This document shows, piece by piece, positions 1,973 through 18,881 of a DNA stretch of 33,258 nucleotides (position 1 is the first letter of the stretch; every line of letters begins with the position of its first letter). A program made the position numbers and the translations under genes. The notes below the pieces were generated by a model. The model ran no database searches and was not told where the DNA came from. It saw nothing but the letters and a program-made list of their open reading frames with translations. The DNA lies in IMG/VR virus record IMGVR_UViG_3300032282_001695, positions 1 through 33,258 of that record; one strand, 5' to 3'. This DNA is from a virus.

Positions 1973-1991
1973 GAGCACCTCAAGGTTCGCC

Positions 1992-2240
1992 GTGTCAACC
2001 CCTGAACTACAACCAGGGTTTTGGCGCGGCGTCAAACAAGACATTGTTGCAGGCTTGGCAGTTTTAGCTGTTGGATCAGCCGCTGCTGGCATTTTTTACC
2101 TCGTCTATACAGTTCCAACCAAACTCGATAACCTCCTAAGCAACCAGGAGATCATCCAAAAAAAGATTGGTGAGATAGACGGTACGGTTAGAGACCATGA
2201 CGTGCGTATCATAAAGTTAGAAATGTCTCGCTACCGATGA
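1992..2240 (+). CDS. Single-pass membrane protein of the lysis cassette
   Basis: An 82-residue protein starting at GTG (the reading frame has no nearby ATG). Residues about 18-40 form one hydrophobic transmembrane segment (IVAGLAVLAVGSAAAGIFYLVY). It is preceded by a short N-terminus and followed by about 40 polar residues with coiled-coil character (LLSNQEIIQKKIGEIDGTVRDHDVRIIKLE). Its place just before the endolysin suggests a lysis role such as holin or spanin-like factor. That is inferred from topology and position, because no family was recognised. Confidence 0.7.
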   Translation: MSTPELQPGFWRGVKQDIVAGLAVLAVGSAAAGIFYLVYTVPTKLDNLLSNQEIIQKKIGEIDGTVRDHDVRIIKLEMSRYR

Positions 2241-2383
2241 CCATGGATGCTCAAAATGCCGCTGCAGTTGCCATTGTTGTTGCTGCTGGCAGTGAATTGA
2301 TTGCAATCAGCCCACTAAAATCAAACAGCTGGATTCAACTGCTGCTTCAAGCTGCACGTCTGGCTTTTCCTAAGCGTCGTTAA
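2237..2383 (+). CDS. 48-residue hydrophobic lysis-region protein
   Basis: ATG at 2237 overlaps the previous stop (ATGA) and the frame runs to TAA at 2381-2383. The protein has an alanine/valine-rich hydrophobic stretch at residues 8-25, a central SPLKSNSWIQ motif, and a basic amphipathic C-terminus ending KRR. I remember similar short proteins from marine cyanobacterial phages but know no function for them. Coupling to the membrane protein before it and the endolysin 3 bases after it makes a lysis-associated role plausible. Confidence 0.65.
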   Translation: MTMDAQNAAAVAIVVAAGSELIAISPLKSNSWIQLLLQAARLAFPKRR

Positions 2384-2386
2384 TCC

Positions 2387-3466
2387 ATGGTCAATGCAGT
2401 ACCGATCACGCTGGAACAGCTGTTTCGGTTCTATAGAGGCTTGCCTCATCAAGCAGCAGCAATTGCAACGCTTGAACAGGATCTAGCTGTCAATGGATAC
2501 GCAGCAGCTATGCGGCGTGATCGTGCATGGTTTAACACGTGGAGTCAGGATGGTAAGCAGGTGGATTTGACAGCTGCTTTGAAATTGATCAAGCAGTTTG
2601 AAGGTTGCCATCTTGAGGCTTATCCAGATCCAGCCACCGGCGCTGAACCATGGACCATTGGTTTTGGTACAACGCGTTATCAAGACGGTCGCTCTGTGCT
2701 TCACGGTGACAAGATCAATGCAATTGAGGCTGACACGCTTTTACGCGCGGATGTTGATCGCATTGTTGCAAAACTGCGCCAAACGATCCCTTACTGGGGT
2801 GAAATGGCAGATCACCAACAATGTGCACTTGTAAGTTTTGCTTACAACCTTGGCAGTGGTTTTTACGGTGCCATTGGTTTTGAAACGATCAGTTCTAAGT
2901 TGCGTGATCGCGAATGGGCAAAAATACCTGATGCAATGTTGCTTTATCGCAATCCCGGCAGCAATGTAGAAGCAGGTCTAAAGCGACGTCGTATTGCAGA
3001 AGGCGATTTATGGAGTAATCGCAAATTGGTGCAAGAACTGCCTTATAAGGTAAAACCAACCGATCCGTTTGGCACTAAATTATCTGCGCATTTTACTCTT
3101 GGTGAATTTGCATTGGGTGATCCAGCTCGACGTTTTGTACAGCAGTATCAGGTTGACACAGCAGCTGAACTAGCAGCCTTTCTTGAGCGAGTGCGTACAG
3201 CATTTGGTGGCAAGCGCATCACTATTACAAGTGGTTACAGACCTGCTGCCATTAACCGTGCTGTAGGCGGTGCTTCTGGCAGTGAGCATTTATATGATGC
3301 ACCTGGCGTTGGCGCTGTTGATTTTTATGTCGATGGAGTAGATATTTACAAGGTTCAAGCATGGGTTGATAAGGAATGGTCATACAGTGTTGGTTATGGT
3401 GCTCCAAAAGGCTTTGTGCACTTGGGAATTCGCCAAGGACGTCCTAAGGTACGTTGGGTTTATTGA
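2387..3466 (+). CDS. Two-domain endolysin: GH24 lysozyme plus M15 peptidase
   Basis: A 359-residue cell-wall hydrolase. Residues 1-60 form a helical N-terminal region. Residues about 61-210 form a T4-type lysozyme (glycoside hydrolase 24) with the FEG motif (catalytic Glu72), Asp81, and WTIGFG at 89-94, cutting the glycan chain. Residues about 230-355 form a DD-peptidase-like M15 domain with SGYRP (282-286), likely zinc ligands His301 and Asp312, and His345 in VHLG, cutting peptide stems. No signal peptide is visible, so it should need a holin; the two upstream membrane proteins are candidates. It starts 3 bases after the preceding stop. Confidence 0.9.
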   Translation: MVNAVPITLEQLFRFYRGLPHQAAAIATLEQDLAVNGYAAAMRRDRAWFNTWSQDGKQVDLTAALKLIKQFEGCHLEAYPDPATGAEPWTIGFGTTRYQDGRSVLHGDKINAIEADTLLRADVDRIVAKLRQTIPYWGEMADHQQCALVSFAYNLGSGFYGAIGFETISSKLRDREWAKIPDAMLLYRNPGSNVEAGLKRRRIAEGDLWSNRKLVQELPYKVKPTDPFGTKLSAHFTLGEFALGDPARRFVQQYQVDTAAELAAFLERVRTAFGGKRITITSGYRPAAINRAVGGASGSEHLYDAPGVGAVDFYVDGVDIYKVQAWVDKEWSYSVGYGAPKGFVHLGIRQGRPKVRWVY

Positions 3467-3472
3467 TTTGAC

Positions 3473-3988
3473 GTGCCACTAGCAGATTTTGAGATTCATC
3501 GTCTTTGCGATAAGCACAAGATGGTGGTTCCTTTTGTACCTGATTTGATCAATCCAGCCAGCATTGACGTGCTACTTGGTGATCGCCTGATGATTGAAGT
3601 TCCCGAACGGCCTGAACTTCAAATCCTAGGTATTGATCATTGCACGCAAGTTGATCCTTACTGGCTTGCGCCTGGTGAGTTTTGTCTTGCCGAAACTCGT
3701 GAGATTTTTAATCTGCCAGATTTTATCTCCGCGCAATTTGTTCTTAAATCAAGTCGTGCACGCGAGGGTCTTGAACACTTATTGGCGGGTTTTTGTGATC
3801 CGGGATGGAATGGCAGCAGGTTGACACTTGAATTGCATAACAGCAGACGTTTTCATAACATTGCAATTTGGCCTGGGATGAGAATTGGTCAGATGGTATT
3901 TCAGCGAATGGATGCCATCCCGTCTCGCAGTTATGCCATCACTGGTCGTTACAACGGCGATTTAGGTGTTACGGCAAGTAAGGGTTGA
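3473..3988 (+). CDS. dcd: dCTP deaminase (Dcd/dUTPase family)
   Basis: A 171-residue protein of the trimeric dCTP deaminase/dUTPase fold. Family features are INPASIDV (26-33), the SSRAREGLE segment (93-101), DPGWNGSRLTLELHN (109-123, with Glu120 at the position of the catalytic glutamate) and a C-terminal GVTASKG tail of the kind that closes over the active site. It converts dCTP to dUTP and ammonia and so supplies dTMP precursors. It starts at GTG six bases after the endolysin and is the last rightward gene of this block. The last 40 bases overlap a leftward gene end to end. Confidence 0.85.
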   Translation: MPLADFEIHRLCDKHKMVVPFVPDLINPASIDVLLGDRLMIEVPERPELQILGIDHCTQVDPYWLAPGEFCLAETREIFNLPDFISAQFVLKSSRAREGLEHLLAGFCDPGWNGSRLTLELHNSRRFHNIAIWPGMRIGQMVFQRMDAIPSRSYAITGRYNGDLGVTASKG

Positions 3989-5354: not shown

Positions 5355-5521
5355 TAATACTGCACGTAAATTTCAGCTTGCCATAGATCGTTGGTGTACC
5401 GGCAAATAGCACCATTTTGACCACAGGCGCGATACAAGGGCTCTTCGCCAAAACTGTGATCTAGCAATTCAATCCAACGACCTTCACCGCGATCCATCCG
5501 TTCCAGGACTTTCCGTTCCAT
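5351..5521 (-). CDS. Small protein, unknown
   Basis: A 56-residue protein at the end of the fourteen-gene leftward operon, taken from the ATG at 5521. A longer frame to 5584 would overlap the preceding gene by 100 bases and is less likely. It is charged and aromatic-rich (MERKVLERMDRGEGRWIELLDHSFGEEPLYRACGQNG), ending QAEIYVQYY. No family was recognised. Confidence 0.5.
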   Translation of the reverse strand: MERKVLERMDRGEGRWIELLDHSFGEEPLYRACGQNGAICRYTNDLWQAEIYVQYY

Positions 5522-5849
5522 TTTCGTAAAGGCCACACCTGGCCGCGAACCGTCCCCTATTCTGACGTGCCTCAGGGAAACCAAAGCTGCATTCGTCTTT
5601 TCTTGGTAACCAATGGATGCAAGACCAGCACTTGACTTGACCTTTTAATTCTTCTTCAACTTGTTCAACAGGTTGGTTTTGATGTAAGGCTAAGTAATGG
5701 TATTGGGCGCGGATATATGCCTCCCTTATGTCTGGTGTGCAAAGATCAATCGTCAACTCTGGTCTTTTTGGCACCTTGAATTTGGCACTCCAATTTTCAG
5801 ACAGCTTGCGCCGTTCAATGATGACACGACCGCTGTAAAGATTGATCAT
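5484..5849 (-). CDS. Protein with C-terminal four-Cys zinc-binding-like motif
   Basis: A 121-residue protein. The N-terminal half is beta-rich and the middle is helical. Residues about 74-110 carry CWSC, then DECSFGFPEA, then FAARCGLY, i.e. four cysteines spaced like a small zinc-binding knuckle. I remember similar CxxC...C..GxPE...C.YY motifs in cyanophage small proteins. A DNA- or protein-binding role is a guess. It is joined to the upstream gene by ATGA. Confidence 0.65.
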   Translation of the reverse strand: MINLYSGRVIIERRKLSENWSAKFKVPKRPELTIDLCTPDIREAYIRAQYHYLALHQNQPVEQVEEELKGQVKCWSCIHWLPRKDECSFGFPEARQNRGRFAARCGLYENGTESPGTDGSR

Positions 5850-6109
5850 TCATTTTCGCCGTATGCCGGCTCGTGATACAGCCTTTCAAGTTGCATTGAT
5901 AATGGCTCTACAGGTTCACACAATTCTTGCATGATTGAATCAACTTGTGGATCAGAGGCATCTTGCATCACGTACATGTGATTGAAACTATGACGTTTGA
6001 TTGCGATAAAACCTACCCGAGGGCTAGACATCAAGAAACGCATCGCACAATTTTCTAGCCAATTCAGAAATGGTGCTGTCATGGGTTTGCGGTTCAGGTA
6101 ATACATCAT
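5846..6109 (-). CDS. Small protein, unknown
   Basis: An 87-residue protein. The N-terminal half (YLNRKPMTAPFLNWLENCAMRFLMSSPRVGFIAIKRHSF) is basic and aromatic and the C-terminal half is acidic with helical repeats (VDSIMQELCEPVEPLSMQLERLYHE). ATGA overlaps join it to both neighbours. No family was recognised. Confidence 0.6.
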   Translation of the reverse strand: MMYYLNRKPMTAPFLNWLENCAMRFLMSSPRVGFIAIKRHSFNHMYVMQDASDPQVDSIMQELCEPVEPLSMQLERLYHEPAYGENE

Positions 6110-6273
6110 TCAACCTCAGCCCATTGCTGTCTGCTAACGATCCGCATCACATGATTTCGGCTGATGCCAAACTGTTGTGCAATGACCTGAGCACTCATGC
6201 CGTCTTGCCGCAATTGGCGTATATGACGCACGTTATCTTCGGTCAGAAATGAGTTGCGGCGTTGTGATTTCAT
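6106..6273 (-). CDS. Small helix-turn-helix DNA-binding protein
   Basis: A 55-residue protein from the ATG at 6273, which overlaps the preceding stop as ATGA. Residues about 10-50 read as a homeodomain-like HTH of the resolvase/transposase type: TEDNVRHIRQLRQDG, then MSAQVIAQQFGISRNHVMRIV as helix-turn-helix and recognition helix. No catalytic domain is attached, so it is either a regulator or a DNA-binding accessory factor. A role in turning off the shared promoters is possible but untested. Confidence 0.7.
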   Translation of the reverse strand: MKSQRRNSFLTEDNVRHIRQLRQDGMSAQVIAQQFGISRNHVMRIVSRQQWAEVE

Positions 6274-6482
6274 TTTGTTTTCCAACTCAAGCGATCCAGA
6301 TACCATTCGGCTTTGGCAAGTGAAACTTCTTGTCCTTTGTGCTGTTCACGCCAAATGTATTTCATGGCATTGCCTTTGCAAAAACCGCGAAATTCCTCTG
6401 GCGTCAAGGCAGATTCAATGGCATCAATACATTCAATCCTGCCTTGGTTGTAGTGTTCTGGCTGGTTCACTGCATCAGACAT
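6270..6482 (-). CDS. DUF3310 family protein
   Basis: A 70-residue protein starting MSDAVNQPEHYNQG and carrying the DUF3310 pattern: PxHY, ECIDAIE, F.G(N)AMKYIWR, then a KG..SLAKAEWYL end. This family is common in phages, sometimes labelled nucleotide kinase without evidence. I take the ATG at 6482, which overlaps the preceding stop by 8 bases. The biochemical role is unknown. Confidence 0.8.
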   Translation of the reverse strand: MSDAVNQPEHYNQGRIECIDAIESALTPEEFRGFCKGNAMKYIWREQHKGQEVSLAKAEWYLDRLSWKTK

Positions 6483-6723
6483 CTGTCGAAAGCTCCAGCT
6501 TGATTGCGGCTTGGAAATAGCCTGCAACTTTCATGCGGGCATACACTGGGCCAGCCTCAACTGCATTTTTGTCTTCAATCTTGCTGTATTGATACCTGGC
6601 GTCTTCCAAAGCAGCCATGGTTTCAATGTTTAGCGTGTTCAAGTCTGAATCGTTCAAATCCTTGATTTCATCTAGTACAAAATTGCGCCCAAGCAAATAG
6701 GACTTGAAAAAAGGTTCGGTCAT
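6475..6723 (-). CDS. Small helical protein, unknown
   Basis: An 82-residue protein, largely helical (VLDEIKDLNDSDLNTLNIETMAALEDARYQYSKIEDK). The last 25 residues (VYARMKVAGYFQAAIKLEL) may form an amphipathic helix. It overlaps the gene before it by ATGA and the DUF3310 gene by 8 bases. No family was recognised. Confidence 0.6.
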   Translation of the reverse strand: MTEPFFKSYLLGRNFVLDEIKDLNDSDLNTLNIETMAALEDARYQYSKIEDKNAVEAGPVYARMKVAGYFQAAIKLELSTDV

Positions 6724-6971
6724 GTGTTTTTTGCGGGTGCACCACGTTTAGGTAATGATTCAAGATCAGCAGCCATTTCTGCTGCTGCTCGAAGTAGTGT
6801 ACTTAATGGGATCGGAGTTGCTTTGCGGCCTGTTGCAACGCGAAGCGCCATTCTGTAACCATGTGAAGCATTGCCATTGCCGAAATTTCTTGCGGCTGCA
6901 ACTTCTTCTTCTGTTACGCGAATGTTTAGCGTCAGGTTGCGGTTGCGTTTAGATGCTGGTCCTACACCCAT
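6720..6971 (-). CDS. Possible ribbon-helix-helix protein
   Basis: An 83-residue basic protein. Residues about 8-45 (KRNRNLTLNIRVTEEEVAAARNFGNGN) look like the beta-strand plus helix start of a CopG/Arc-type ribbon-helix-helix fold, followed by a second helix. A tail with KRGAPAKNT follows. DNA binding is plausible but the match is from pattern only. It overlaps the preceding gene by 10 bases. Confidence 0.55.
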   Translation of the reverse strand: MGVGPASKRNRNLTLNIRVTEEEVAAARNFGNGNASHGYRMALRVATGRKATPIPLSTLLRAAAEMAADLESLPKRGAPAKNT

Positions 6972-7225
6972 TTTCCTAGCAAGAAACGACGTGTGACCTC
7001 AATAGCCTGTTGTGCATGTTTTTCGATGACAACTGATTTGGTGTTGCCCATCGCAAGACATACTGCGTCAAATAGTTCTTGATAGTCGGTATCACGAAAA
7101 TTTGAACCAATATCTTGGCAAAATTCTTGCCAGAGTCCTGTGTAGGTCCCGCAAGTGCGTCCGCTTGCTGCATAAAGCGCGTTCATCATGTCAGCGCGTC
7201 GTTGATCCAGGCTGGTTTGATTCAT
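6962..7225 (-). CDS. Small protein, unknown
   Basis: An 87-residue protein taken from the ATG at 7225, which overlaps the preceding stop as ATGA. A longer frame exists upstream but would run through that gene. The sequence is helical with an aromatic, cysteine-containing middle (SGRTCGTYTGLWQEFCQDIGSNFRDTDYQELFDAVCLAMG). No family was recognised. Confidence 0.6.
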   Translation of the reverse strand: MNQTSLDQRRADMMNALYAASGRTCGTYTGLWQEFCQDIGSNFRDTDYQELFDAVCLAMGNTKSVVIEKHAQQAIEVTRRFLLGKWV

Positions 7226-7428
7226 GGATGATTGTTTAATGCTTGTCGAATGTTGAGCAGTTCTTCTCGGCGTGCCGAGATGTGTGGGTGGCTGCATAGT
7301 TTACGCAAGTCATCAAGTCGAATGTCGATTAACTGGCAAAGCCGCAATTTTTCTTCCTGTTGACCTGCATGGAACATGCTTGAGTCACTGATTAGCGTCT
7401 GTAACTTGGCTCGTATGTCTTCAGTCAT
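7222..7428 (-). CDS. Small helical protein, unknown
   Basis: A 68-residue, mostly helical and charged protein (IRAKLQTLISDSSMFHAGQQEEKLRLCQLIDIRLDDLRKL). The ATG shares one base with the upstream stop (TAATG). It could form a two-helix hairpin. No family was recognised. Confidence 0.6.
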   Translation of the reverse strand: MTEDIRAKLQTLISDSSMFHAGQQEEKLRLCQLIDIRLDDLRKLCSHPHISARREELLNIRQALNNHP

Positions 7429-7655
7429 TACGCGGCTTCAACAGTTGCGCTTGGCCAGCGATTTTGTGCGTATTTGATCGCTGCTGTTTTGTTTTCAGCT
7501 CGCATTGTGACTGTCATTGGCATTGCACCAGGCTTATAGACAATCACAACAAATGGACGGGCACGAACAGATGCCTTGGGACGGCTGATGCCATCCCCAT
7601 AGCGTCCATTGTCTTCTTCGCGCCAATGAAGCAAGGCCCCTTGAATTTCAGACAT
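7428..7655 (-). CDS. Small basic protein, unknown
   Basis: A 75-residue basic protein with beta-strand-rich core (ARPFVVIVYKPGAMPMTVTMRAENKTAAIKYAQNRWPSA). The alternation of strands and a terminal helix suggests a compact alpha/beta fold. Its start overlaps the preceding gene by 8 bases. No family was recognised. Confidence 0.6.
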   Translation of the reverse strand: MSEIQGALLHWREEDNGRYGDGISRPKASVRARPFVVIVYKPGAMPMTVTMRAENKTAAIKYAQNRWPSATVEAA

Positions 7656-7818
7656 TGGGAAGTTTGACTTGTTCGTGTGTGGTTGGTGTTAGCCATTCAA
7701 TTTGGTTCCAATATGGCAACCATTCTTGAGCAGCAATTGATTTTGCTTCGGTCCAGCTAGTGGCACTGATGCACTCGTAAACGTTTGCATCTTTGATGCG
7801 AAAGTAAAAGCGGTTCAT
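7648..7818 (-). CDS. 56-residue protein, unknown
   Basis: ATG at 7818 overlaps the preceding stop (ATGA) and the frame ends with TGA at 7648-7650, 8 bases into the next gene. The protein (MNRFYFRIKDANVYECISAT, then SWTEAKSIAAQEWLPYWNQIEWL) has a strand-helix-strand pattern rich in tryptophan. Its tight coupling on both sides supports it as a gene despite its length. Confidence 0.65.
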   Translation of the reverse strand: MNRFYFRIKDANVYECISATSWTEAKSIAAQEWLPYWNQIEWLTPTTHEQVKLPNV

Positions 7819-8120
7819 GAGTACTTGGTTTCAATAGTTTTGCTTGAAAGATTTAGTTGCGACATGATCCATGAATTGCCGTAAATGTCCTTAAGGAGGT
7901 AATGCGGCCATGCCATGTTTTCCATGCGTTCAACCACGATCAAACCAGTACCAAATGGCCAGCCACGAGCGTACACGGTTTGCCCGTCGTAGAAACGCCA
8001 TACAGGACGTTCCTTGCGATTACCGTTGCGATCAGGTGTCATCAAATAAGTTTCTTTTTTGATTGACAGGATCGGCACTGCGTTAGTGAAATAGCAGTTT
8101 TTGATTGGAAAAGTTTTCAT
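7815..8120 (-). CDS. Small protein, unknown
   Basis: A 101-residue protein. The start at 8120 overlaps the upstream stop (ATGA); an internal ATG at codon 27 (MTPDRNGN) is an alternative. The body is beta-rich (PVWRFYDGQTVYARGWPFGTGLIVVERMENMAW), as in a small SH3-like barrel. No family was recognised. Confidence 0.6.
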   Translation of the reverse strand: MKTFPIKNCYFTNAVPILSIKKETYLMTPDRNGNRKERPVWRFYDGQTVYARGWPFGTGLIVVERMENMAWPHYLLKDIYGNSWIMSQLNLSSKTIETKYS

Positions 8121-8875
8121 TTGTTTTGGGAAAGTTTGGAACGCATTACTTCGGTCAGTTCATAATGATGCGAAGTACCCTTAATTCGCTGGATTGAACC
8201 ATAGTCTATGAGCAAAACCAATGCTCTAGCTATTGCGGCTTTCCAGCGTGGACCTTTCTTTAAGACGATAGTATCGCCTGGCCAGAAATCATGAAAGGTA
8301 GATTCAATGTAAGCATTTAACATGATGGCAGAAAACGCCTTGTGAAATGCTGGCACTGTTAGCAGAATCGTTTCAATAATATTTGCCCAGTCTTGCTGAG
8401 TTCTGTATTTAAGATCAGGCTTTTGTGTTTCAGTCTGACTGTTTTGTGCAATTTTACCAGTAAGTTGCTCAATCAAGTCGGCTGCTCGCCGCAACAGTTC
8501 TGGCAGTGTTACCAATGGATCTGATGGTGCTGGTGTCAGTTCCTGCTGTTGTGCAAGACGCAACGCATCACCTTTCAGGTCACCTGGGAAATCAGGATGC
8601 TTGCCGGGTTCAATGCGCTTGGCTTTAATAACAGTTCCCGGTATTAAAGTTTCGAACCAGTCCTCGTTGTCAGGACTAAAGATGATGCCTGGATACTCGC
8701 GGTTGTTGTACAAATACGAGCACTTTGCCTGGTAATTACCAGCCTTGGTTTTTGATTTGCAAACATAGTGAATCCTGGCTGGCAACTCACTGGGAAGCTG
8801 CTGGTCTGGCTTCATTGAACTAAAAATCATTTGTTGTTTTGAAATTGCACCAGAATGAAATTGTTCAGATTTCAT
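8117..8875 (-). CDS. 252-residue protein, unknown, possible winged-helix end
   Basis: The largest gene of the leftward operon. I take the ATG at 8875, inside ATGAAATCTGA where the preceding gene ends; a longer frame to 8899 is less likely. Residues about 35-105 form a beta-rich domain (ARIHYVCKSKTKAGNYQAKC, then FETLIPGTVIKAKRI), which could be an OB-like barrel. The centre is a Gln/Pro linker. The C-terminal 100 residues are helical, ending with a segment that resembles a winged helix (RALVLLIDYGSIQRIKGTSHHYELT). A DNA-binding early protein is a guess. Confidence 0.6.
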   Translation of the reverse strand: MKSEQFHSGAISKQQMIFSSMKPDQQLPSELPARIHYVCKSKTKAGNYQAKCSYLYNNREYPGIIFSPDNEDWFETLIPGTVIKAKRIEPGKHPDFPGDLKGDALRLAQQQELTPAPSDPLVTLPELLRRAADLIEQLTGKIAQNSQTETQKPDLKYRTQQDWANIIETILLTVPAFHKAFSAIMLNAYIESTFHDFWPGDTIVLKKGPRWKAAIARALVLLIDYGSIQRIKGTSHHYELTEVMRSKLSQNK

Positions 8876-9029
8876 CCTCGTCTTCTGGCAAGTAATCACG
8901 GATGATGTCCATCAAATGTTCCGGCAGTTGCCCGTAAAGCATCAGCGGTGAAACATCCTCTGGATTACATACAAGTGCTTCTGCTAGTGCATTGATGGCA
9001 TCTAGCGTTTCATAGCTGAGGTCTTGCAT
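8865..9029 (-). CDS. 54-residue acidic protein, first gene of the large early operon
   Basis: ATG at 9029 directly follows promoter module 2 and its CAAATCAAATC leader. The frame ends with TGA at 8865-8867. The protein is strongly acidic and helical (MQDLSYETLDAINALAEALV, ending DYLPEDEDEI), a composition seen in phage anti-host and DNA-mimic proteins. That role is an inference from charge and position only. Confidence 0.65.
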   Translation of the reverse strand: MQDLSYETLDAINALAEALVCNPEDVSPLMLYGQLPEHLMDIIRDYLPEDEDEI

Positions 9030-9047
9030 GTGATTTGATTTGATTTG

Positions 9048-9120
9048 TGGGGGTGTGCCCCATGCAGCAACTATACATCATTGTGCATTGATGTTGCATG
9101 GTAGTGACAAAAATTAACAG
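9048..9120 (-). promoter_or_regulatory. Leftward promoter module 2 with 5' stem-loop
   Basis: On the minus strand: CTGTTAA-N5-GTCACTA (9120-9102), -35-like TGCAAC (9098-9093), 17-base spacer, -10 TATAGT (9075-9070), TGCTGCA at the start site, then the stem-loop TGGGG-CACAC-CCCCA (9062-9048). A CAAATCAAATC leader precedes the ATG at 9029, as in module 1. It should drive the fourteen-gene operon down to 5351. Confidence 0.75.
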
Positions 9121-9155
9121 AGTGGTTAGTGTTGGGCATCAGCACCTGAATTGCC

Positions 9156-9362
9156 ATGAACTTTGGTCAATGGATGCAGATCACGATTCCACCTGAACGA
9201 TCATTTGAATTGGAAGCCAAATGCCGACAGCTTGAAAAAACCAAGGATGTCGGCAAATTGGCTGCCTTGCTGTTACGTCAGACTTACTTGCAGCAAGAGT
9301 ATCTACAAGCAGCAGTTAACGAAATTGCAAGGCTGGAACTACAGCTGATGAGAGATCCTTAA
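9156..9362 (+). CDS. Small helical protein, unknown
   Basis: A 68-residue rightward gene set between two leftward operons, starting 36 bases beyond promoter module 2. Residues 1-15 include a strand (QWMQITIPPE) and the rest is one long helix region with coiled-coil character (LEAKCRQLEKTKDVGKLAALLLRQTYLQQEYLQAAVNEIARLE). This resembles small regulators, but no HTH is clear. Its end overlaps the SSB gene by 4 bases, convergently. Confidence 0.6.
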   Translation: MNFGQWMQITIPPERSFELEAKCRQLEKTKDVGKLAALLLRQTYLQQEYLQAAVNEIARLELQLMRDP

Positions 9363-9685
9363 AAGGGCGTATCAGTTTGACCACCTTTGGGAGGTAGAGC
9401 AAAGTCGTTTACGCGTAAAACAATTTTTGCTCCAGAGGAACCATTGTTTCGTTCATAAACCTCGACATGACCTTCACCAGATACGGTCACCTGTGAACCC
9501 TTGGAAAGGTAATTAGCTGCCACAGCTGCACGCTTGCCCCAGACAGAGCAATCAACAGCAGTCGTAACGTCTTCGCCTTTAATTTTTTTGTTGCAAAGGA
9601 TTGTGAAATTTGCAACCTCGTTATCGCCAACAGTAGCGGTACGAGGGTCTGAAGCCAGATTGCCTACGGCAGTGATTTGAAGCAT
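9359..9685 (-). CDS. ssb: Single-stranded DNA-binding protein
   Basis: A 108-residue SSB with an OB fold: MLQITAVGNLASDPRTATVG, VANFTILCNKK, DCSVWGKRAA, YLSKGSQVTVSGEG and a beta end. The C-terminus is DTPF, a short version of the acidic tip that SSBs use to recruit partner proteins. It is the last gene of the recombination operon, downstream of the annealing protein and RusA, and should coat ssDNA during replication and recombination. Confidence 0.9.
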   Translation of the reverse strand: MLQITAVGNLASDPRTATVGDNEVANFTILCNKKIKGEDVTTAVDCSVWGKRAAVAANYLSKGSQVTVSGEGHVEVYERNNGSSGAKIVLRVNDFALPPKGGQTDTPF

Positions 9686-9721
9686 GGTTGTGTAGCGGTT
9701 GGTTGTGCGATCTGACAGCGG

Positions 9722-10438
9722 TTAGCTGGCCAAGAACGCATTGATGAATTGAACGTGTGCTTGCGTCTTGATCTGTTTGGACAAAGCGGCATCGCCAGGC
9801 AGCTTGTACTCCTTACGGAATGCAGCCGATAGTTCTTTGATGCGTTCTGGTGCTTTGCTGTGCAGATCAGTTAATGAACGAATCACAATTTCGTACTCAC
9901 CTTCGTCAATAGGTGCGGCAAGATCAGCGACTGGTGCTGCTGATGCAGCTTGTTTCTTCGTGACAGGTTTTGTCTTTGCTTCTGGTGCTTGTGCTGTTGC
10001 TGTTGCTGTTGCAGTTTCAGCGGGCGTCACACCGGCTTCTGCCACTTCTTGCTTGGCCCACAATTCGTAACCCAATGACAGGCTGAAAGCTGCACAGGCA
10101 CATAAGGCGCGTCGGTGAGCATCTGTCAACGCTCTGGCGCTGATCTTGTCATACTGCACCGGGTTGTTCCGATTATCCATTACTGGGAATGGAAAATCAG
10201 CCGTAGCTTGATCTTCTGGCCCAGTGAAATAACCAATCAAATAGCCAGTGCCATCTGGTGCTTTCCAGAGGTGTGCACCGTCTTGTGCGGGTTTTAGATG
10301 GAATTCCCAACCGGGTGCATGAGTGTGCAGATGATTGGCAATTCGTGCCCATGCAACGTATGAAGCCGCATAACTGCCAGTCCCTTTGGTGTAAACATCA
10401 TCTTTGGTGATGATGCCAGCGAGATTCGGATAGATCAT
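9722..10438 (-). CDS. ssDNA annealing protein, DUF1071 (Sak3-type)
   Basis: A 238-residue protein from the ATG at 10438 (ATGA overlap). Residues about 20-135 match the DUF1071 pattern: YVAWARIANHL, WEFHL, FPFPVMDNRNNPV, then ISARALTDAHRRALCACAAFSLSLGYELWA. This family forms phage single-strand annealing recombinases. Then come an Ala/Thr-rich low-complexity linker (about 145-175) and a helical C-terminal domain (EYEIVIRSLTDLHSKAPERIKELSAAFRKEYKLPG). Association with SSB and RusA supports homologous recombination of phage DNA. Confidence 0.75.
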   Translation of the reverse strand: MIYPNLAGIITKDDVYTKGTGSYAASYVAWARIANHLHTHAPGWEFHLKPAQDGAHLWKAPDGTGYLIGYFTGPEDQATADFPFPVMDNRNNPVQYDKISARALTDAHRRALCACAAFSLSLGYELWAKQEVAEAGVTPAETATATATAQAPEAKTKPVTKKQAASAAPVADLAAPIDEGEYEIVIRSLTDLHSKAPERIKELSAAFRKEYKLPGDAALSKQIKTQAHVQFINAFLAS

Positions 10439-10863
10439 GAAACAGGTGTACAGGTGATGGTTGCGCCTGGTCGTTCGTTTGGAACGCAATAGCGCTTGTA
10501 TGCGTCGATTTTGATGACTTGTGAATCGTCATCAAACAGGACTTCGGTTAAGGCATCGAGGATGCCTCGCATGAGTTTGTCAATATCACCGATGCTTTTG
10601 CTGGTGCAGAGAATTGGTGCATTGCGAGTAAGTTCTCCTTTTGTTGTGTAGTGTGATTTTGGTCTTTGAAAAGTAAAAACCACGGAAACAGACATGGGTC
10701 CATTTGTGTGCCAGTCAACCGGTCTGTACTGCTGAGCAACAAATCTTACAGTCTGTCGCCATGGTTTCAGATGTCGGCTGGCTTCTATCATTCGTCCATT
10801 GCCAAGTGCACGTTTGCTGCCTTGTGGGCGGCTAGTGCCCTCAACAAAGAACGTAACGTTCAT
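10435..10863 (-). CDS. rusA: RusA-type Holliday junction resolvase
   Basis: A 142-residue protein with the RusA pattern: RPQGSKRAL (12-20), a central strand region, then GDIDKLMRGILDALTEVLF (92-110) followed by DDDSQV (111-116). Asp93, Asp95 and the DDD at 111-113 match the acidic catalytic residues of RusA. It cuts Holliday junctions made by the annealing protein, or debranches DNA for packaging. ATGA overlaps link it to both neighbours. Confidence 0.85.
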   Translation of the reverse strand: MNVTFFVEGTSRPQGSKRALGNGRMIEASRHLKPWRQTVRFVAQQYRPVDWHTNGPMSVSVVFTFQRPKSHYTTKGELTRNAPILCTSKSIGDIDKLMRGILDALTEVLFDDDSQVIKIDAYKRYCVPNERPGATITCTPVS

Positions 10864-11880: not shown

Positions 11881-11953
11881 ATCGGGTGATCCCGATGCAA
11901 CAACTATACACCACTTGACACAGCCTGTACACCACTGTTAAAAAAGTTAACAG
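11881..11953 (-). promoter_or_regulatory. Leftward promoter module 3 with perfect dyad and 5' stem-loop
   Basis: On the minus strand: the perfect dyad CTGTTAA-N5-TTAACAG (11953-11935), -35-like TGTACA (11931-11926), 17-base spacer, -10 TATAGT (11908-11903), TGTTGCA, then the stem-loop ATCGGG-ATCA-CCCGAT (11896-11881). Most of it lies inside the end of the upstream epimerase gene, whose TAG stop is part of the -10 box. It gives the recombination genes their own transcript. Confidence 0.75.
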
Positions 11954-12851
11954 TTGCTGCCAGGCCGTCGTCCAGGCAGACCGTTGGATTCCATCCAAGT
12001 TCCTGTTGGGCCAACGTGATCACCGGTTTCCGTTGCAATGGATCGTCTTGCGGCAACGGCAAAAAGACTGCATCACTAGAACTCCTGGTCTGTTCAATGA
12101 CCTTAGCGGCAAGTTCAATGACTGAAAGTTCGTTTGGGTTGCCAAGGTTGATTGGTCCAGTGCAGCTTGATTCCATCAACAGCACGAGGCCATCAATCAA
12201 GTCATCCACATAGCAAAAAGATCTGGTCTGTGATCCATCGCCATAAATCGTCAATGGTTCATCTCTTAAAGCTTTAACGATGAAATTGCTGACGACTCGA
12301 CCATCGTCCTCACGCATCCTTGGACCGTAGGTATTGAAGATTCGCGCCACACGGATCTCGGTGCCGTGCATACGCCAGTAGTCAAAACACAATGTTTCAG
12401 CGATGCGCTTCCCCTCGTCGTAACAGCTGCGAATGCCAATCGTATTGACACACCCCCGATAACTCTCGGGCTGGGGGTGGACTTCAGGATCGCCATACAC
12501 TTCGCTGGTGCTGGCCAGTAGCAGCCGTGCTCCAACGCGACGCGCCAGGCCCAGCATGTTGTAGGTGCCAAGGAAGCTGGTTTTGGCGGTTTTGATCGGG
12601 TTGTGCTGGTAATGCACCGGTGAGGCGGGGCATGCCAAATGCCAGATGCGATCCACCTCGAGCTTGATCGGCTCGGTCACATCGTGGCGGATCAGCTCAA
12701 AACGCGGATGGCCGATCCACTGGGCAATGTTGGCCTTACGACCCGTGAAGTAGTTGTCAAGGCAGATCACTTCCTCGCCGGCCTGCATCAGCCGATCCAC
12801 TAGGTGAGAACCAACAAAACCGGCACCGCCGGTGATCAGATTTCGTGTCAT
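11904..12851 (-). CDS. UDP-glucuronate decarboxylase-like SDR (UDP-xylose synthase)
   Basis: A 315-residue extended short-chain dehydrogenase. GGAGFVG (8-14) binds NAD and Asp32 is at the end of the second strand. The active site is S/T at 114-116 in [10 protein letters not shown] plus Tyr144-x3-Lys148 in the RSCYDEGKR segment, typical of UDP-glucuronate decarboxylases, which make UDP-xylose. NTYGPRM and RSFCYVDDL are also family motifs. It is full length. The N-terminal coding half looks more GC-rich than its neighbours, which suggests capture from a cyanobacterial host. ATGA coupling upstream shows it is integrated in the operon. Product could serve surface polysaccharide change or DNA glycosylation. 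Confidence 0.8.
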
Positions 12852-13919: not shown

Positions 13920-14684
13920 ATGCCACGAATCCGATCAGCCGGGTTTTCCATCTGTCCACACGCCTTAATGGACCAGATGGCAGAACCAGGCGGAAAGCAA
14001 CGCGTCTGCGTCTACCTGCTGCTACACCGCTATGGCAACGGCAGCGATCAAGGCTGCTACGCATCCGTCACCACCATGTCCAAGCAATTGGGCATGAAAC
14101 GCCATGACGTCATGACAGCCATCAACTGGCTGCTCGCTAACGGTTGGGCTGTTTACAGCACTGCCTCAGATGGCCGTCGCAGGCATATTTATCTCAATGT
14201 TGACCAGCAAAAAATCGGTGTCCAAAAGGGCACCGGTGTCCAAAAAGGCACCAATCAGATCGGTGTCCAAAAGGGCATCGATATCGGTGTCCAAAAGGGC
14301 ACCCTAACTAAATCCCATAAACAAGATCCCTCTTCATCTTTCATAAGAGCTAAAGCTCTTATTCCAGATGAAGATCCGGTTCTCAGTTCAAAAACGATCA
14401 AAACCAAAGCCAAGGCACTGTCAGCTGATCTGGCACAGCACGCGGATCTGATCCACTCGTTCTGGAAGATCAAGAAAGGTTCCAAAGGCGACATCGCTTG
14501 GAAACTGCTGTGCACAGAGCTGACAAAATTCCATGACAACCTCGGTCCAGCAGCTGTCGAGGAGCAGCTCACGCAAGCCATCAATGGCAAGTGGGCTGGC
14601 ATCAGCTACAGCCGCCACCTCCAGTTCAACCCGCACCTAGTCACCGCCACCACATCCACCACACCGCAGTACGACATTCGCTGA
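13920..14684 (+). CDS. Replication initiator-like protein with internal repeats
   Basis: A 254-residue protein from the ATG at 13920; ATG at 13968 is an alternative, and a GTG at 13875 lies in the terminator stem. Residues about 18-85 form a winged-helix domain (KQRVCVYLLLHRYGNG, SVTTMSKQLGMKRHDVMTAINWLLANGW), as in phage replication organisers. Residues about 100-130 hold four GVQKG repeats encoded by the iteron-like DNA. The C-terminal 80 residues are a helical domain (LIHSFWKIKKGSKGDIAWKLLCTELTKF) ending GKWAGISYSRHLQFNPHL. With no polymerase or helicase in view, it probably loads the host replisome. Confidence 0.75.
   Translation: MPRIRSAGFSICPHALMDQMAEPGGKQRVCVYLLLHRYGNGSDQGCYASVTTMSKQLGMKRHDVMTAINWLLANGWAVYSTASDGRRRHIYLNVDQQKIGVQKGTGVQKGTNQIGVQKGIDIGVQKGTLTKSHKQDPSSSFIRAKALIPDEDPVLSSKTIKTKAKALSADLAQHADLIHSFWKIKKGSKGDIAWKLLCTELTKFHDNLGPAAVEEQLTQAINGKWAGISYSRHLQFNPHLVTATTSTTPQYDIR
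14216..14362 (+). other. Candidate replication origin: four iterons and AT-rich inverted repeat
   Basis: Four copies of CGGTGTCCAAAAgGGCAyC start at 14216, 14234, 14261 and 14285, spaced 18, 27 and 24 bases. They encode GVQKG repeats but use almost the same codons every time. They are followed by an A+T-rich stretch (14304-14345) and a perfect 8-bp inverted repeat ATAAGAGC-TAAA-GCTCTTAT (14343-14362). Lambda has the same plan, with origin iterons inside its initiator gene O. Confidence 0.65.
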
Positions 14685-14977
14685 TGGAACTCTTTGAACC
14701 ACGCCTTGCCAACGCTTACGTCTGGGCCTGCACCGACAAGAAAGAAAAATCGTTTTCGCCAAAGATGCTTTACCGCGCCACGTCGGACCCGACCTTCGAC
14801 AAGCTGGCAATTGACCACGTACAGGTCTCAGAATCGCCTGTAGGGCGCTTTGACGAGCTTGGACGATGGTGCACCTACTGTCCGCCGATCAGCGGCATCT
14901 ACGGCGGTCTGGCGCGTTATGTGCTGCATCCGCATGCAGAGGCCGCTCGTCAACGCATCCTTCAACCCACACGCTGA
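14684..14977 (+). CDS. Small protein, unknown
   Basis: A 97-residue protein from the ATG at 14684, which shares a base with the initiator stop (TGATG); a longer upstream frame runs inside the initiator gene. Features are FSPKMLYRATSDPTFDKLAIDHVQV and a WCTYCPP motif (Cys-x2-Cys), then GGLARYVLHPHAEAARQRIL. The CxxC might bind metal. Translational coupling suggests a replication accessory. Confidence 0.65.
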   Translation: MELFEPRLANAYVWACTDKKEKSFSPKMLYRATSDPTFDKLAIDHVQVSESPVGRFDELGRWCTYCPPISGIYGGLARYVLHPHAEAARQRILQPTR

Positions 14978-15246
14978 TGGCACTTACACCACTCGGAACT
15001 TTCTCGGGCACCGGCGAAACCCTCGCGCACATGGCTGCCAAAGGTCTTTGCACCATTGATGACCTTGATCACCGTCCACCAGGATCAGATCCAAAATTCC
15101 AACCGCAAAACTTGCTTCGCAACTGGATTCAAGGCAATCAAGCCAAGTGGGCCGAAATCCGCGCACAGCACAACATGCCAGACGAAATAGCCGTCGAAGC
15201 TGGACCGTCCCCTAGAGATTTTGTTCCAAATGATCTACCATTTTAA
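14977..15246 (+). CDS. Small replication-region protein, unknown
   Basis: An 89-residue protein from the ATG at 14977 (TGATG overlap). It has a helical N-terminal half (GTFSGTGETLAHMAAKGLCTIDDLD), a polar middle (FQPQNLLRNWIQGNQAKWAEIRAQHNM), and ends DFVPNDLPF. The short acidic-aromatic tail resembles the C-terminal tip of SSB-type proteins, so it may bind a host replication factor, but that is speculation. Confidence 0.65.
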   Translation: MALTPLGTFSGTGETLAHMAAKGLCTIDDLDHRPPGSDPKFQPQNLLRNWIQGNQAKWAEIRAQHNMPDEIAVEAGPSPRDFVPNDLPF

Positions 15247-15267
15247 AAATTCCAACTTTCAATTGCC

Positions 15268-15487: not shown

Positions 15488-16306
15488 ATGCCAGCCACCA
15501 AAACTTTTCCATTTGATGAAGTGGAAATTACTCCAACCGCAACCTCGATCAAGGACTTAAAGCACGATCACAAGAATGCAAGGCGTCGTACTGATCGCAG
15601 TAGCAAGTTAATCGCTGAATCCTTAAAGCAATTTGGTGCCGCTAGATCAATCGTCATTGACGAAGACAATCGAATCCTTGCCGGCAATGGCACCATTGAA
15701 GGTGCAAAAGCGGCTGGCATCAAAAATTTACGTGTCATCGAAACAGATGGCACTGAGATCATTGCTGTTAAACGCACTGGTCTTTCAGAAGATCAAAAAA
15801 TTGGTCTTGCACTCGCAGACAACAGAACCAGTGATCTCAGTGAATGGGATGCAGCAATGTTGCATCAGCTCAGCGAAGAACACGACATCACAACTTGGTT
15901 TGATCAAAATGAATTAGACGAGTTATTTGGCGTTGAAGATGCAATAGATGAAGACAGCCCGTACACAAATAAAACAACTGCGCCAATCTATGAACCAAGC
16001 GGCACTCAGCACAAACCTGATCACCTTTACGATGCAGCAAAAACAAAACAGCTGATTGCGGAAATAGAACTTGCTGATGTCCCAGATGATGTCAAAACAT
16101 TTTTGATCTCAGCAGCACATCGACACACGGCTTTTAACTACAGCAAAATTGCAGACTATTACGCCACCGCACCAAAGGAAATTCAATCGCTTTTTGAAGA
16201 CTCTGCTCTTGTAATTATTGACTTTGAACAGGCAATTCAAAATGGATTCGTAAAACTTGATGAACGCGTTGAACAAGCCTTCAAGCAGGACCATCCCAAT
16301 GCGTAA
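15488..16306 (+). CDS. ParB-domain protein paired with a glycosyltransferase
   Basis: A 272-residue protein from the ATG at 15488, 7 bases after the preceding stop. Residues about 15-110 form a ParB/Srx N-terminal domain: KDLKHDHKNARRRTDRSSKL, then FGAARSIVIDEDNRILAGNGTIEGAKAAGIKNLRV and LALADNRTSDLSEWD. No ParA or partition-site repeats are nearby. The C-terminal half is helical and unassigned. The next gene, a glycosyltransferase, overlaps it by 8 bases. From memory, ParB-fold proteins recur in phage DNA base-modification cassettes, in some cases as kinases; here either DNA binding or an enzymatic role fits. Confidence 0.75.
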   Translation: MPATKTFPFDEVEITPTATSIKDLKHDHKNARRRTDRSSKLIAESLKQFGAARSIVIDEDNRILAGNGTIEGAKAAGIKNLRVIETDGTEIIAVKRTGLSEDQKIGLALADNRTSDLSEWDAAMLHQLSEEHDITTWFDQNELDELFGVEDAIDEDSPYTNKTTAPIYEPSGTQHKPDHLYDAAKTKQLIAEIELADVPDDVKTFLISAAHRHTAFNYSKIADYYATAPKEIQSLFEDSALVIIDFEQAIQNGFVKLDERVEQAFKQDHPNA

Positions 16307-17159
16307 TGACTTCTGTGTTTTCATCCTGTCCAACCGCCGACCGGATAACGTAAAAACACTTGAAACCCTGCAAAGATCTGGCTACACCGGCAAATGGTTC
16401 ATTGTCATTGATGACGAAGATCCAACCGGTGAACAATACAAAAAGAATTTTGGTGGTCAAGTATTAGTCTTCTCAAAAGCAAAAATTGCTGAAACAACAG
16501 ATTCATGTGATACCTCTAAAGATCGACGCACTCCACTCTGGGCACGGAATGCCTGTTGGGATTTAGCAAAACAGGTCAACTGTCGCTTCTTCTGTCAGCT
16601 TGATGATGATTACACTTGGTTCTCTTACCGGCGCATTGGCAAAAAAGAAATTGGCCAAAAACCTAAATACTCAAACTTCAAGGCAGAAAGTCTTGATGTC
16701 GTATTTGATGGAATGGTTGAATTCCTAGAAAACAATCAATCTGTCTCGAGTTTGGCATTCTCGCAAGGTGGTGACTACAACGTCAGTTCTGAAAAGGCTA
16801 GACGTGTTCTGCGCAAAGCAATGAACTCTTTCTTTTGCGACACCCAACGTCCATTCAAATTTATTGGCAAATTCAACGATGACGTCAATACATACATTGC
16901 CCATGGGGCAACCGGCAAACTCTTCTTTACATACTGCCCAATCCAACTAACACAAGGCGTAACACAGCAAAACAAAGGTGGCATCACTGAAGCCTATAAA
17001 GAAAATGGCACCTATGTAAAATCCTTCTACACAGTCATGATTTCACCCTCGTCAACCTGGATTGAGTTGATGGGTCACACCAACCCACGTCTCCATCACA
17101 CCCATGACTGGAATAAAGTCTGTCCTAAAATCTTGCACGAAAAGTATCGAAGGCAATAA
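16299..17159 (+). CDS. GT-A glycosyltransferase, probable DNA-modification (TET-associated) type
   Basis: A 286-residue protein from the ATG at 16299. CVFILSNRRPDN (6-17) and GKWFIVIDDEDPTGEQY (31-47) give the nucleotide-binding start of a GT-A fold. FFCQLDDDYTWF (97-108) holds the DxD metal motif (Asp102-104). SFSQGG-like AFSQGGDY (153-160), RKAMNSFFC and FNDDVNTY (192-199) follow, then QNKGG. These match, from memory, the TET/JBP-associated glycosyltransferases of phages, which put sugars on hydroxymethylated bases. It is coupled to the ParB-domain gene and lies just before the terminase. Alternative: a surface glycosyltransferase. Confidence 0.7.
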   Translation: MRNDFCVFILSNRRPDNVKTLETLQRSGYTGKWFIVIDDEDPTGEQYKKNFGGQVLVFSKAKIAETTDSCDTSKDRRTPLWARNACWDLAKQVNCRFFCQLDDDYTWFSYRRIGKKEIGQKPKYSNFKAESLDVVFDGMVEFLENNQSVSSLAFSQGGDYNVSSEKARRVLRKAMNSFFCDTQRPFKFIGKFNDDVNTYIAHGATGKLFFTYCPIQLTQGVTQQNKGGITEAYKENGTYVKSFYTVMISPSSTWIELMGHTNPRLHHTHDWNKVCPKILHEKYRRQ

Positions 17160-17211: not shown

Positions 17212-17535
17212 ATGGCACCTAAACGTGGTCCAAAACAAGAAACCCTTGAACGTGCCGAACGCTTTGCACGCATCATTGCTAATGGTGGACGACGTTCAGA
17301 TTGCATCCGCTATGCCAGGGAAAATTGGGGGGTAAAAGATGATGCCTGTGATCTTTACCTGCGTCATGCGCGCGAAAAACTAAAAGCTGACTGGGATGTT
17401 GAACGCCCGCAAATGGTCGCTGATCTGTTATCGCAGTGCAGCACCTTACAGATGGAAGCTCGTCGGGCTGGTCAATATCACATTGCTCTAGGCGCTATCA
17501 ATACCGCAGCCAAACTGGCGCAGCTTTGCTCATGA
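17212..17535 (+). CDS. terS: Terminase small subunit
   Basis: A 107-residue protein with ATG at 17212. Its N-terminal half has helices with HTH character (LERAERFARIIANGGRRSDCIRYARENWGVKDDACDLYLRHAREKL) and its C-terminal half is a long helix (MVADLLSQCSTLQMEARRAGQYHIALGAINTAAKLAQL), as in small terminases that recognise the packaging site. It is coupled to the large subunit by ATGA. The 52 bases upstream hold TACAAT (17167-17172) and a GTGCAC but no convincing promoter. Confidence 0.8.
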   Translation: MAPKRGPKQETLERAERFARIIANGGRRSDCIRYARENWGVKDDACDLYLRHAREKLKADWDVERPQMVADLLSQCSTLQMEARRAGQYHIALGAINTAAKLAQLCS

Positions 17536-18881
17536 GCATCCTTGCTTCCGTGCGTGATGGTCACGTACTGCAAAAGCTTGGTGACAATGGCAATGACCTA
17601 GATACGGAAGACGCTTTGCGGCGAATCCGTGATGACCTCCACCCAGGACAACTGGCATTTGTTGAAGATCAATCGTCAAGCATCCTTGGTGTGTCAGCTG
17701 GTTATGGCGCTGGAAAAACCAGAGGCCTATGCGCTAAAGCTGTGCACCTTGCTATGGCCAACCAAGGTTTCATTGGCGTGGTCATGGAACCAACCGGCCC
17801 GTTGATCCGCGACATTTGGCAAAGCGATTTTGATGACTTCTTAGAGGCATATCACATCCCATACAGCTTCCGTGCTTCACCTCTTCCCGAATACACTTTG
17901 CATCTGCCGTTAGGTGATACAAAGATTCTCTGCCGCAGTTTTGAGAATTGGCAGCGCATCATCGGTATTAACGCTGCCTGGATTTTGTCGGACGAGATTG
18001 ACACCGTTGCGCCAAGCATTGCAAATAAAGCATTCCCTAAAATCCTTGGTCGTTTGCGAGCAGGCAACGTCAGACAATTTGCTGCTGCATCAACGCCTGA
18101 AGGATTCCGATGGATGTGGCAAACATTTGCAAGTGAGGATGCGAAAGGTCGTGAAGACAGAAAACTTATTCGGATGCGCACGCAGGACAACCCACACCTG
18201 CCGCCTGATTTCATCGAACGGATGCAGGCCAACTATGACCCGCAACTGCTACGTGCCTATCTAGATGGTGAGTTTGTAAACCTCACAACTGGTCAGGTCT
18301 ATGACCGCTTTGATCGCGCCAAACATGTGTCCGTACATTGTCCGGACATCAACCGGGAACCATTGCGTATTGGTGTGGACTTTAACGTCGGCAATATGTC
18401 TGCCGTGATTGCCATCCGTGTTGGCAAAAGTCTTTACGTCGTGGACGAGATCAGCGGTGCACACGACACAGACACGCTTGCCAAAAAAATCAAGGCGAAT
18501 TACCCAGACAACAAGATCTACATTTATCCAGACGCCAGCGGTGGCAACCGCAGTACCAATGCCACACAGACCGACATTGCCATCCTCGAAAGCTATGGCA
18601 TGTCCAACCAATCACCAAAGGCAAACCCTCCCGTTCGTGATCGTGTGGCTGCTGTTCAGGCTTTGCTAGAGAACGGCAAAGGCGAAGTCAGACTCAAAAT
18701 TGCGTCATCGTGCGTGAAATTGATCGAATGCCTTGAGCTTCAGAGTTACACCGAGAAAGGCGATCCCGATAAAGATGCTGGCTACGACCACATGAACGAC
18801 GCACTTGGTTATCTAATCTGGCGTGAGTTCAACCCACTGCACGCTGGTGCTGGTCGCGGCACAGGCATTAGATTGTATTGA
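17532..18881 (+). CDS. terL: Terminase large subunit
   Basis: A 449-residue packaging motor. Residues 56-63 (AGYGAGKT) are Walker A with Lys62 and Thr63, and 151-155 (ILSDE) are Walker B. Coupling motif AAASTPEG follows. The C-terminal RNase H-like nuclease has GVDFNVGNMSAV, YIYPDASGG and DHMNDALGY, each with a metal-binding Asp. It starts at ATG 17532, overlapping the small subunit stop. Confidence 0.9.
   Translation: MSILASVRDGHVLQKLGDNGNDLDTEDALRRIRDDLHPGQLAFVEDQSSSILGVSAGYGAGKTRGLCAKAVHLAMANQGFIGVVMEPTGPLIRDIWQSDFDDFLEAYHIPYSFRASPLPEYTLHLPLGDTKILCRSFENWQRIIGINAAWILSDEIDTVAPSIANKAFPKILGRLRAGNVRQFAAASTPEGFRWMWQTFASEDAKGREDRKLIRMRTQDNPHLPPDFIERMQANYDPQLLRAYLDGEFVNLTTGQVYDRFDRAKHVSVHCPDINREPLRIGVDFNVGNMSAVIAIRVGKSLYVVDEISGAHDTDTLAKKIKANYPDNKIYIYPDASGGNRSTNATQTDIAILESYGMSNQSPKANPPVRDRVAAVQALLENGKGEVRLKIASSCVKLIECLELQSYTEKGDPDKDAGYDHMNDALGYLIWREFNPLHAGAGRGTGIRLY

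Follow-up and report, generated by a model that had tools for sequence, protein, structure and literature searches.

Two adjacent genes ahead of the terminase genes in a linear virus record of 33,258 bases, called the window here, probably form a phage DNA-modification cassette in which glycosylation would be addressed by a ParB domain, would depend on a helical domain (HD) and would need neither a TET enzyme nor a nucleotide hydroxymethylase. This reading comes from the pairing of the genes, the constancy of HD, the lack of any recognised hydroxylase, the exchange of the cassette for others and the sugar-nucleotide enzymes beside some of its copies; that the substrate would be DNA is suggested by the exchange and by the enzyme family. 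In the division of labour that we propose, the ParB/Srx domain would bring the complex to phage DNA and HD, as a constant subunit of the glycosyltransferase (a TAGT), would enable it to act. The TAGT would move sugar from a nucleotide sugar onto phage DNA, around replication or packaging, and the likely benefit would be that the sugar shields this DNA from host nucleases. If a cassette free of TET and hydroxymethylase can replace a methyltransferase while keeping almost the same ParB domain, either the sugar–base linkage or an activating partner should be new, and part of the orphan TAGTs already reported would be explained.

Table 1. Features of the window and of two related phages. For the two genes of the pair, coordinates run from the ATG to the end of the stop codon; L numbers denote loci retrieved in the searches.
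Feature	Position	Strand	Basis
ParB-HD partner protein, 272 aa, two domains	15488..16306	+	ORF; PHROG ParB families
ParB/Srx domain, residues 19-148	15542..15931	+	ParB domain match of L165, L183, L204 ends here
HD (helical domain), residues 154-268	15947..16291	+	HD profile; constant TAGT partner
TAGT glycosyltransferase, 286 aa, GT-A fold	16299..17159	+	PF20691, PHROG 842, AF2
Probable small terminase subunit, 107 aa	17212..17535	+	Suggested by position
Large terminase subunit	17436..18881	+	phrog_2, 8.2e-44
UDP-glucuronate decarboxylase (UDP-xylose synthase) homologue	11904..12851	-	PDB 2b69 match, 7.6e-129
Broken pair remnants in LL-Ku and Ld17	L287 90-938 and L286 75-833		

The layout agrees with a preliminary description of this DNA, which had the two genes overlapping by eight bases and preceding the terminase (Table 1). 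The 107-residue ORF that separates the pair from the gene for the large terminase subunit matched a PHROG of no known function, and the true start of the large subunit is probably near 17535, later than the 17436 of the ORF. Compared with five near relatives the pair gives pN of 0.06-0.14 and pS of 0.56-0.80, a pattern of purifying selection; since relatives also occur in diverse viruses, the pair is conserved beyond chance. Elsewhere in the window, positions 3473-3988 (+ strand) hold a dCTP deaminase-like gene (PF22769, 5.2e-30).

The second gene product matched the Pfam TAGT family PF20691 at 7e-30 (score 104.9 bits, cut-off 27.5) and no other Pfam family, as well as PHROG 842 at 2.7e-66. 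The LDDDY and FNDDV motifs pointed out in the preliminary description are indeed present, at residues 101 and 192. The corresponding DDD and N-x-D motifs are conserved in TAGT and, among 50 sequences, D103 and D104 of the Asp-rich metal site are invariant and D102 is retained in at least 90%. The AF2 model is a confident GT-A fold (pLDDT 88.7); the top structural neighbour of this predicted model is 1foa (Z 14.2, rmsd 4.0 over 203 residues). Searching PDB sequences with the glycosyltransferase profile gave a best E of 1.6, taken as chance. The GT-A fold is common to ordinary polysaccharide or lipopolysaccharide glycosyltransferases, as in seroconversion, and the enzyme could on that ground be one of them. 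However, the profile search places it in the TAGT family and not in a polysaccharide family, the match lying far over the Pfam cut-off with no other family matched, and its cassette context, with a constant ParB-HD partner and exchange with DNA-modifying genes, also disfavours such a role, which we consider very improbable.

The first gene product has two parts. Its ParB half falls below every Pfam model and is matched by PHROG ParB families (7.6e-38), in keeping with the earlier suggestion that a TAGT-type enzyme is here paired with a ParB protein. Structure prediction bore out the assignment, the N-terminal domain taking the ParB-CTPase/Srx fold (Z 10.1, rmsd 2.1 over 77 residues to 7bnr). 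For the AF2 model of the whole protein the mean pLDDT is 75.1 and the pTM 0.43, so that the placement of the domains is uncertain, and the HD core (residues 171-240) is modelled with pLDDT of 86-98. We infer that the ParB/Srx domain may serve as an addressing or NTP-switch module. A plasmid partition ParB (ParABS) was also considered and rejected, no ParA family being found among the window's 50 Pfam-scanned ORFs (25 of 26 families listed).

Residues from about 146 to 272 make up the conserved section of ParB-HD, which in several phages is free-standing directly upstream of the glycosyltransferase. No Pfam model was found for the window's HD (best E 0.14); the end of PHROG 620 overlaps part of it (1.7e-8). 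Invariant residues among 33 HD sequences include Y168, R212, Y225, E237 and D245. Structure matches to the HD part reach at most Z 2.3 in a list filled mainly by the ParB half, a Foldseek comparison with viral models gave chiefly ParB proteins, two short hits among them, and the best hit of the HD profile to PDB sequences (E 0.008), a helical adhesin, was taken as chance. HD would be a new protein domain if the cassette reading is true.

The association of HD with TAGT was assessed from both sides. A TAGT-seeded set of 88 loci comprised the window, the best 80 of 285 viral matches and seven of 34 named phage records. With the viral loci thus limited to the best 80 of 285, the HD profile placed HD upstream of TAGT in all 86 loci with upstream sequence (the contigs of L035 and L050 start at or within the TAGT), and the gap is below 150 bases in 85 of them and 822 bases in L066. 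The HD-seeded set of 111 loci held 74 new viral loci, drawn from the best 80 of at least 592 matches, and 37 loci in bacterial genomes; ten of the 74 sit on contigs of the TAGT-seeded set. With the same limit on the viral part, TAGT lies downstream of HD in 110 of the 111 (73 of 74 viral and 37 of 37 genome loci), within 150 bases in 108 and mostly overlapping, L117 being the sole locus that lacks it.

The ParB domain behaves differently. It is present in 166 of the 198 HD ORFs from these sets (viral loci: best 80 of 285 and best 80 of at least 592) and absent from 28, four being cut by a contig end; in L037 and L064 ParB is a separate ORF ahead of a ParB-less HD ORF. ParB is dispensable for HD-TAGT pairing, and the real, constant partner of TAGT is HD, sometimes as a stand-alone protein. 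The earlier view of the ParB protein as the partner therefore stands as far as the pairing goes and is amended as to the component: the helical half is constant, the ParB domain diverse or absent. ParB as constant partner was rejected because its mean pairwise identity over 47 non-redundant loci is 29%, against 47% for HD and 49% for the glycosyltransferase. Mirror-tree correlations are 0.59 for HD with the glycosyltransferase, 0.60 for ParB with HD and 0.43 for ParB with the glycosyltransferase, with partial values of 0.46 for HD and 0.12 for ParB against the glycosyltransferase; the signal, moderate and not decisive, appears to favour HD as the link.

In a phage collection searched with tblastn, TAGT was found in 34 records and HD in 28, all of them among the 34. 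The six records without an HD match were two each of Porphyromonas, Ld17 and LL-Ku. In one Porphyromonas record (L088) HD was nevertheless detected by the HD profile. The other two cases proved to be broken pairs (Table 1), each looked at in one of its two records: LL-Ku lacks HD and the beginning of TAGT, the first part of its ParB gene leading straight into mid-TAGT, and Ld17 lacks HD and has an internal deletion in TAGT. In both, TAGT is also frameshifted with an altered end, so that where HD has gone the TAGT is broken as well. Lactobacillus phage c5, a small dairy phage of 31.8 kb, carries the pair whole; c5, with the pair intact, and its relatives LL-Ku and Ld17, likewise lactobacillus phages, which have lost it, make a natural comparison set.

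The slot before the terminase was compared among relatives of the large subunit, the best 80 of at least 599 viral loci being taken, of which 57 extend 1.5 kb or more upstream; the counts that follow refer to these. ParB-HD plus TAGT fills the slot in one (L205, on the same contig as L002). Three (L165, L183 and L204) instead carry ParB fused to an N6/N4 DNA methyltransferase, recognised by Pfam in L165 (9.7e-24) and L183 (5.2e-23) and by similarity in L204. In six the slot contains ParB, a further protein and a TET: the middle protein is an FkbM-type methyltransferase in L174 and L229, a TAGT in L235 (PF20691, 1.4e-15) and another glycosyltransferase-like protein in L234, L236 and L237. The TETs match PF12851 at 8.9e-8 (L174) and 5e-8 (L235), under the curated cut-off, and the four others are at least 96% identical to one of these two. 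None of the three cassette types is found in the remaining 47. Since these lack it, and since Ld17 and LL-Ku survive with no intact copy, the pair is dispensable. The L174 operon, at 1370-3500 of that locus and ahead of the terminase, perhaps makes a methylated hydroxymethyl base.

The boundaries of the exchange are visible in protein and DNA alike. The ParB domains of the three methyltransferase fusions are 75-83% identical in amino acids to that of the window, the similarity ending at residue 148; for the ParB proteins that accompany TET the identity is no more than 26-32%. At the DNA level the window and L174 share 85% identity over 14000-15249, 14000 being simply where the comparison was begun. 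Their identity is 81% from 17622, and the cassettes lying between these two stretches are unrelated; in L204, L183 and L165 the ParB stretch is shared and the match resumes at about 17230. Such breakpoints are direct evidence of cassette exchange, and HD-TAGT sits where sister phages have a DNA methyltransferase or TET system. This exchange adds weight to a role in DNA modification.

Comparison with these neighbours defines what is particular to the window. In the phage ParB-DNA methyltransferase fusions of the same locus the C-terminal part is the N6/N4 methyltransferase, in place of which the window has HD in cis and TAGT in trans. The PADLOC MTase_II match of the window protein spans residues 23-150, which is the ParB part only, PHROG methyltransferase models likewise match over that part only, and no methyltransferase family was found by Pfam in either ParB-HD or the glycosyltransferase. 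The phage TET operons, reportedly analysed together with TAGT by Iyer et al. in 2013, resemble the window in slot, in having a ParB gene and, in L235, in the PF20691 enzyme; they differ in containing a TET, for which the window was negative with a TET profile. HD was not found in any of the six TET-operon loci. The window TAGT also represents a distinct subfamily, the last 50 or so positions of its profile being unmatched by the two TET-type enzymes tested.

The claim that the window contains neither TET nor hydroxymethylase was upheld. A Pfam scan of the 50 ORFs mentioned above (again with 25 of 26 families listed; seven further ORFs lay outside it and 11904-12851 was scanned separately), the TET profile, PF00303 and PF00145 revealed no TET, hydroxymethylase or C5-methyltransferase in the window, a negative on which, for TET, the possible incompleteness of the record bears. 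PF12851 (Tet_JBP) was found in one of 50 records of the first search, the record behind L055, and in none of the 48 HD-bearing records of the second, including that of L117, which lacks TAGT; with one record common to both searches, TET/JBP is present in one of 97 distinct HD-bearing records. Both TET positive controls added to the second search were found (E 1.2e-10), yet below the PF12851 curated cut-off. A profile built from three phage TETs matched only L055 among 200 sources including the window. Of 46 records, one had a PF00303 (thymidylate-synthase-like) match, a Vibrio phage gene annotated as thymidylate synthase beside dihydrofolate reductase, and none matched PF00145. Many of the records searched are fragments, but c5, jlb1, HHTV-2 and NTR1 have records labelled as complete genomes. 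A hydroxylase hidden in unsequenced kilobases is thus unlikely, larger or complete relatives having been searched and TET having been found in only one of 97: the lack of TET and hydroxymethylase is not an artefact of missing kilobases because it holds in nearly all related records.

To our knowledge, phage DNA glycosylation starts from a hydroxylated pyrimidine, and TAGTs of known chemistry act on hydroxylated or already glucosylated bases. In kinetoplastids, base J is made by JBP and the J-glucosyltransferase, a related glucosyltransferase acting on DNA, and requires the JBP hydroxylase, no counterpart of which was found in the window. The known chemistry of TAGTs lends weight to the idea that the TAGT does glycosylate DNA bases and that the hydroxyl is made by a phage or host enzyme of an unrecognised family. 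L055, indeed, has HD-TAGT plus a TET in a separate ParB-GT-TET operon, on whose products HD-TAGT could act, and in six genome loci (L262, by Pfam, and L271, L275, L276, L279 and L282, by 44-50% identity) a radical-SAM gene, capable perhaps of unusual chemistry, lies at most two genes downstream of TAGT. Radical SAM, however, stands beside few copies, and a hydroxylated base made by the host would have to be universal among hosts that span many bacterial groups and an archaeon. Nor was a third common gene apparent in the window and five diverse phages: TAGT is the only protein common to all six at phmmer E < 1e-3, a comparison of limited sensitivity in which c5 was whole and the other four not quite (jlb1 34.3 of 38.3 kb, HHTV-2 50 of 52.6 kb, NTR1 61 of 65.3 kb, an E. 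coli record 37 of 38.7 kb). By the same criterion ParB-HD and the large terminase are common to four of the six, and the HD profile detects HD in all six. On balance we think an unrecognised hydroxylase unlikely.

If DNA is modified without prior hydroxylation, as the cassette reading holds, it might be glycosylated as it is, for example on an exocyclic amine or another group already on host DNA, or HD might supply the missing activation. The specific form in which HD-TAGT directly glycosylates a canonical base, for instance an exocyclic amine at sites specified by ParB, is possible but tentative. If true, this would be a hydroxyl-independent DNA glycosylation that can be swapped for DNA methyltransferases, occurs widely among bacterial and archaeal phages and is also housed in prophages of E. 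coli.

The phage TAGT with known chemistry is the beta-glucosyl-HMC-alpha-glucosyltransferase of T6 (Ggt), which according to PMC13216743 belongs to the same Pfam family as the window TAGT and adds sugar to an already glucosylated base. Our main reading is weakened by this enzyme since it needs a prior hydroxyl; the TET of L055, the dispensability of the pair, the lack of TAGT in L117, the GT-A neighbours of the glycosyltransferase model and the moderate mirror-tree signal also count against it. T6 Ggt is the source of the name of PHROG 842, which the window TAGT matches, and is unmatched by the HD-TAGT profile; HD was not found in a 45-kb T6 stretch, and Ggt adjoins a dCMP hydroxymethylase, in contrast to the window, which lacks PF00303. 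The same source, from 2026, counts 288 of 753 phage genomes with TAGT and no alpha- or beta-GT, as potential novel transferases. The word ParB is absent from its text, and the partner and the cassette exchange come from the present analysis. Among other sources, PMC13390438 treats the T6-type TAGT, PMC12704722 surveys ParB-CTPase fusions including phage ParB-methyltransferases (in its text 'DNA modification' and 'terminase' are absent and 'glycos' occurs once) and PMC12373910 concerns GmrSD enzymes, without bearing on the pair. No description of an HD partner or ParB-TAGT cassette was found in literature titles and abstract starts, a search outside which most subscription papers and bioRxiv lie, and nothing useful came to light on whether the DNA of Lactobacillus phages or of HHTV-2 is restricted. 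Orphan TAGTs are already in print; the HD partner and the cassette exchange are described here.

Genes beside the pair offer hints as to the sugar. The neighbour survey covered up to 181 loci and 413 ORFs, of which 192 representative starts were read by eye and ten Pfam-tested; it was not exhaustive. A UDP-galactopyranose mutase gene meets the TAGT stop codon in L259 (6258-7391; PF03275, 1.2e-72) and L267 (6216-7301; 52% identical), which suggests galactofuranose as donor there. Epimerase/dehydratase genes follow TAGT in L257 and L074 and, in L012, lie upstream of the pair with one small ORF between. The L012 gene is 56% identical to the decarboxylase homologue of the window, which is on the opposite strand 3.4 kb from TAGT and whose product may make the donor sugar. 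In L068 and L270 a TAGT is followed by a cytidylyltransferase-like gene. Because such varied sugar-nucleotide genes adjoin copies of the pair, the data suggest that different phages attach different sugars.

The phyletic distribution of the pair is broad. Viruses that carry it infect E. coli, Lactobacillus, Nocardia, Vibrio and Haloarcula, with more distant relatives in viruses of Porphyromonas, and record titles point to contigs of further groups, among them Bacteroidota, Bacillota and Verrucomicrobia. Terminase genes are neighbours of the pair in many phages, which could mean that the sugar goes not to DNA but to a protein, such as terminase, a component of the virion or ParB-HD. The structural neighbours of the glycosyltransferase model fit this as well, being generic GT-A enzymes with many protein glycosyltransferases, the polypeptide GalNAc-transferases among the close ones, and RefSeq names the E. 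coli homologue GREB1-related, GREB1 being reported to be a protein O-GlcNAc transferase. Against it, sister phages hold DNA methyltransferase or TET cassettes in the same slot, and stand-alone pairs are also found in replication regions away from terminase. ParB-less HD-TAGT adjoins a helicase and an exonuclease in a Vibrio phage, with primase and SSB annotated nearby, and lies beside SSB-cluster genes in L047, L053 and L056; in L068 it is beside genes read by eye as polymerase and clamp. A protein target is, in our judgement, decidedly improbable.

In E. coli the pair lies between trkG and terminase genes, a location taken to be a Rac-like prophage from the names recE/recT-like, racC, kil, ydaY and trkG. 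At least 80% of the query pair is present in 885 of 5,426 complete E. coli genomes, a figure that does not imply intactness of each copy. Strain 7/2 and the phage record vB_EcoS-613R10 have the pair, whereas K-12 retains only a remnant of the ParB-HD gene, ynaK, with its first 212 bases.

Two loci show unusual architectures. At 13095-14390 of L047 a P-loop motif, ParB and HD follow one another in a single protein ahead of TAGT, and a second HD-TAGT pair is found about 4 kb upstream of it. L068, from a 115-kb phage, has at 5428-10852 HD, four tandem TAGTs, the cytidylyltransferase-like gene and a fifth TAGT, an array that perhaps serves a multi-sugar modification.
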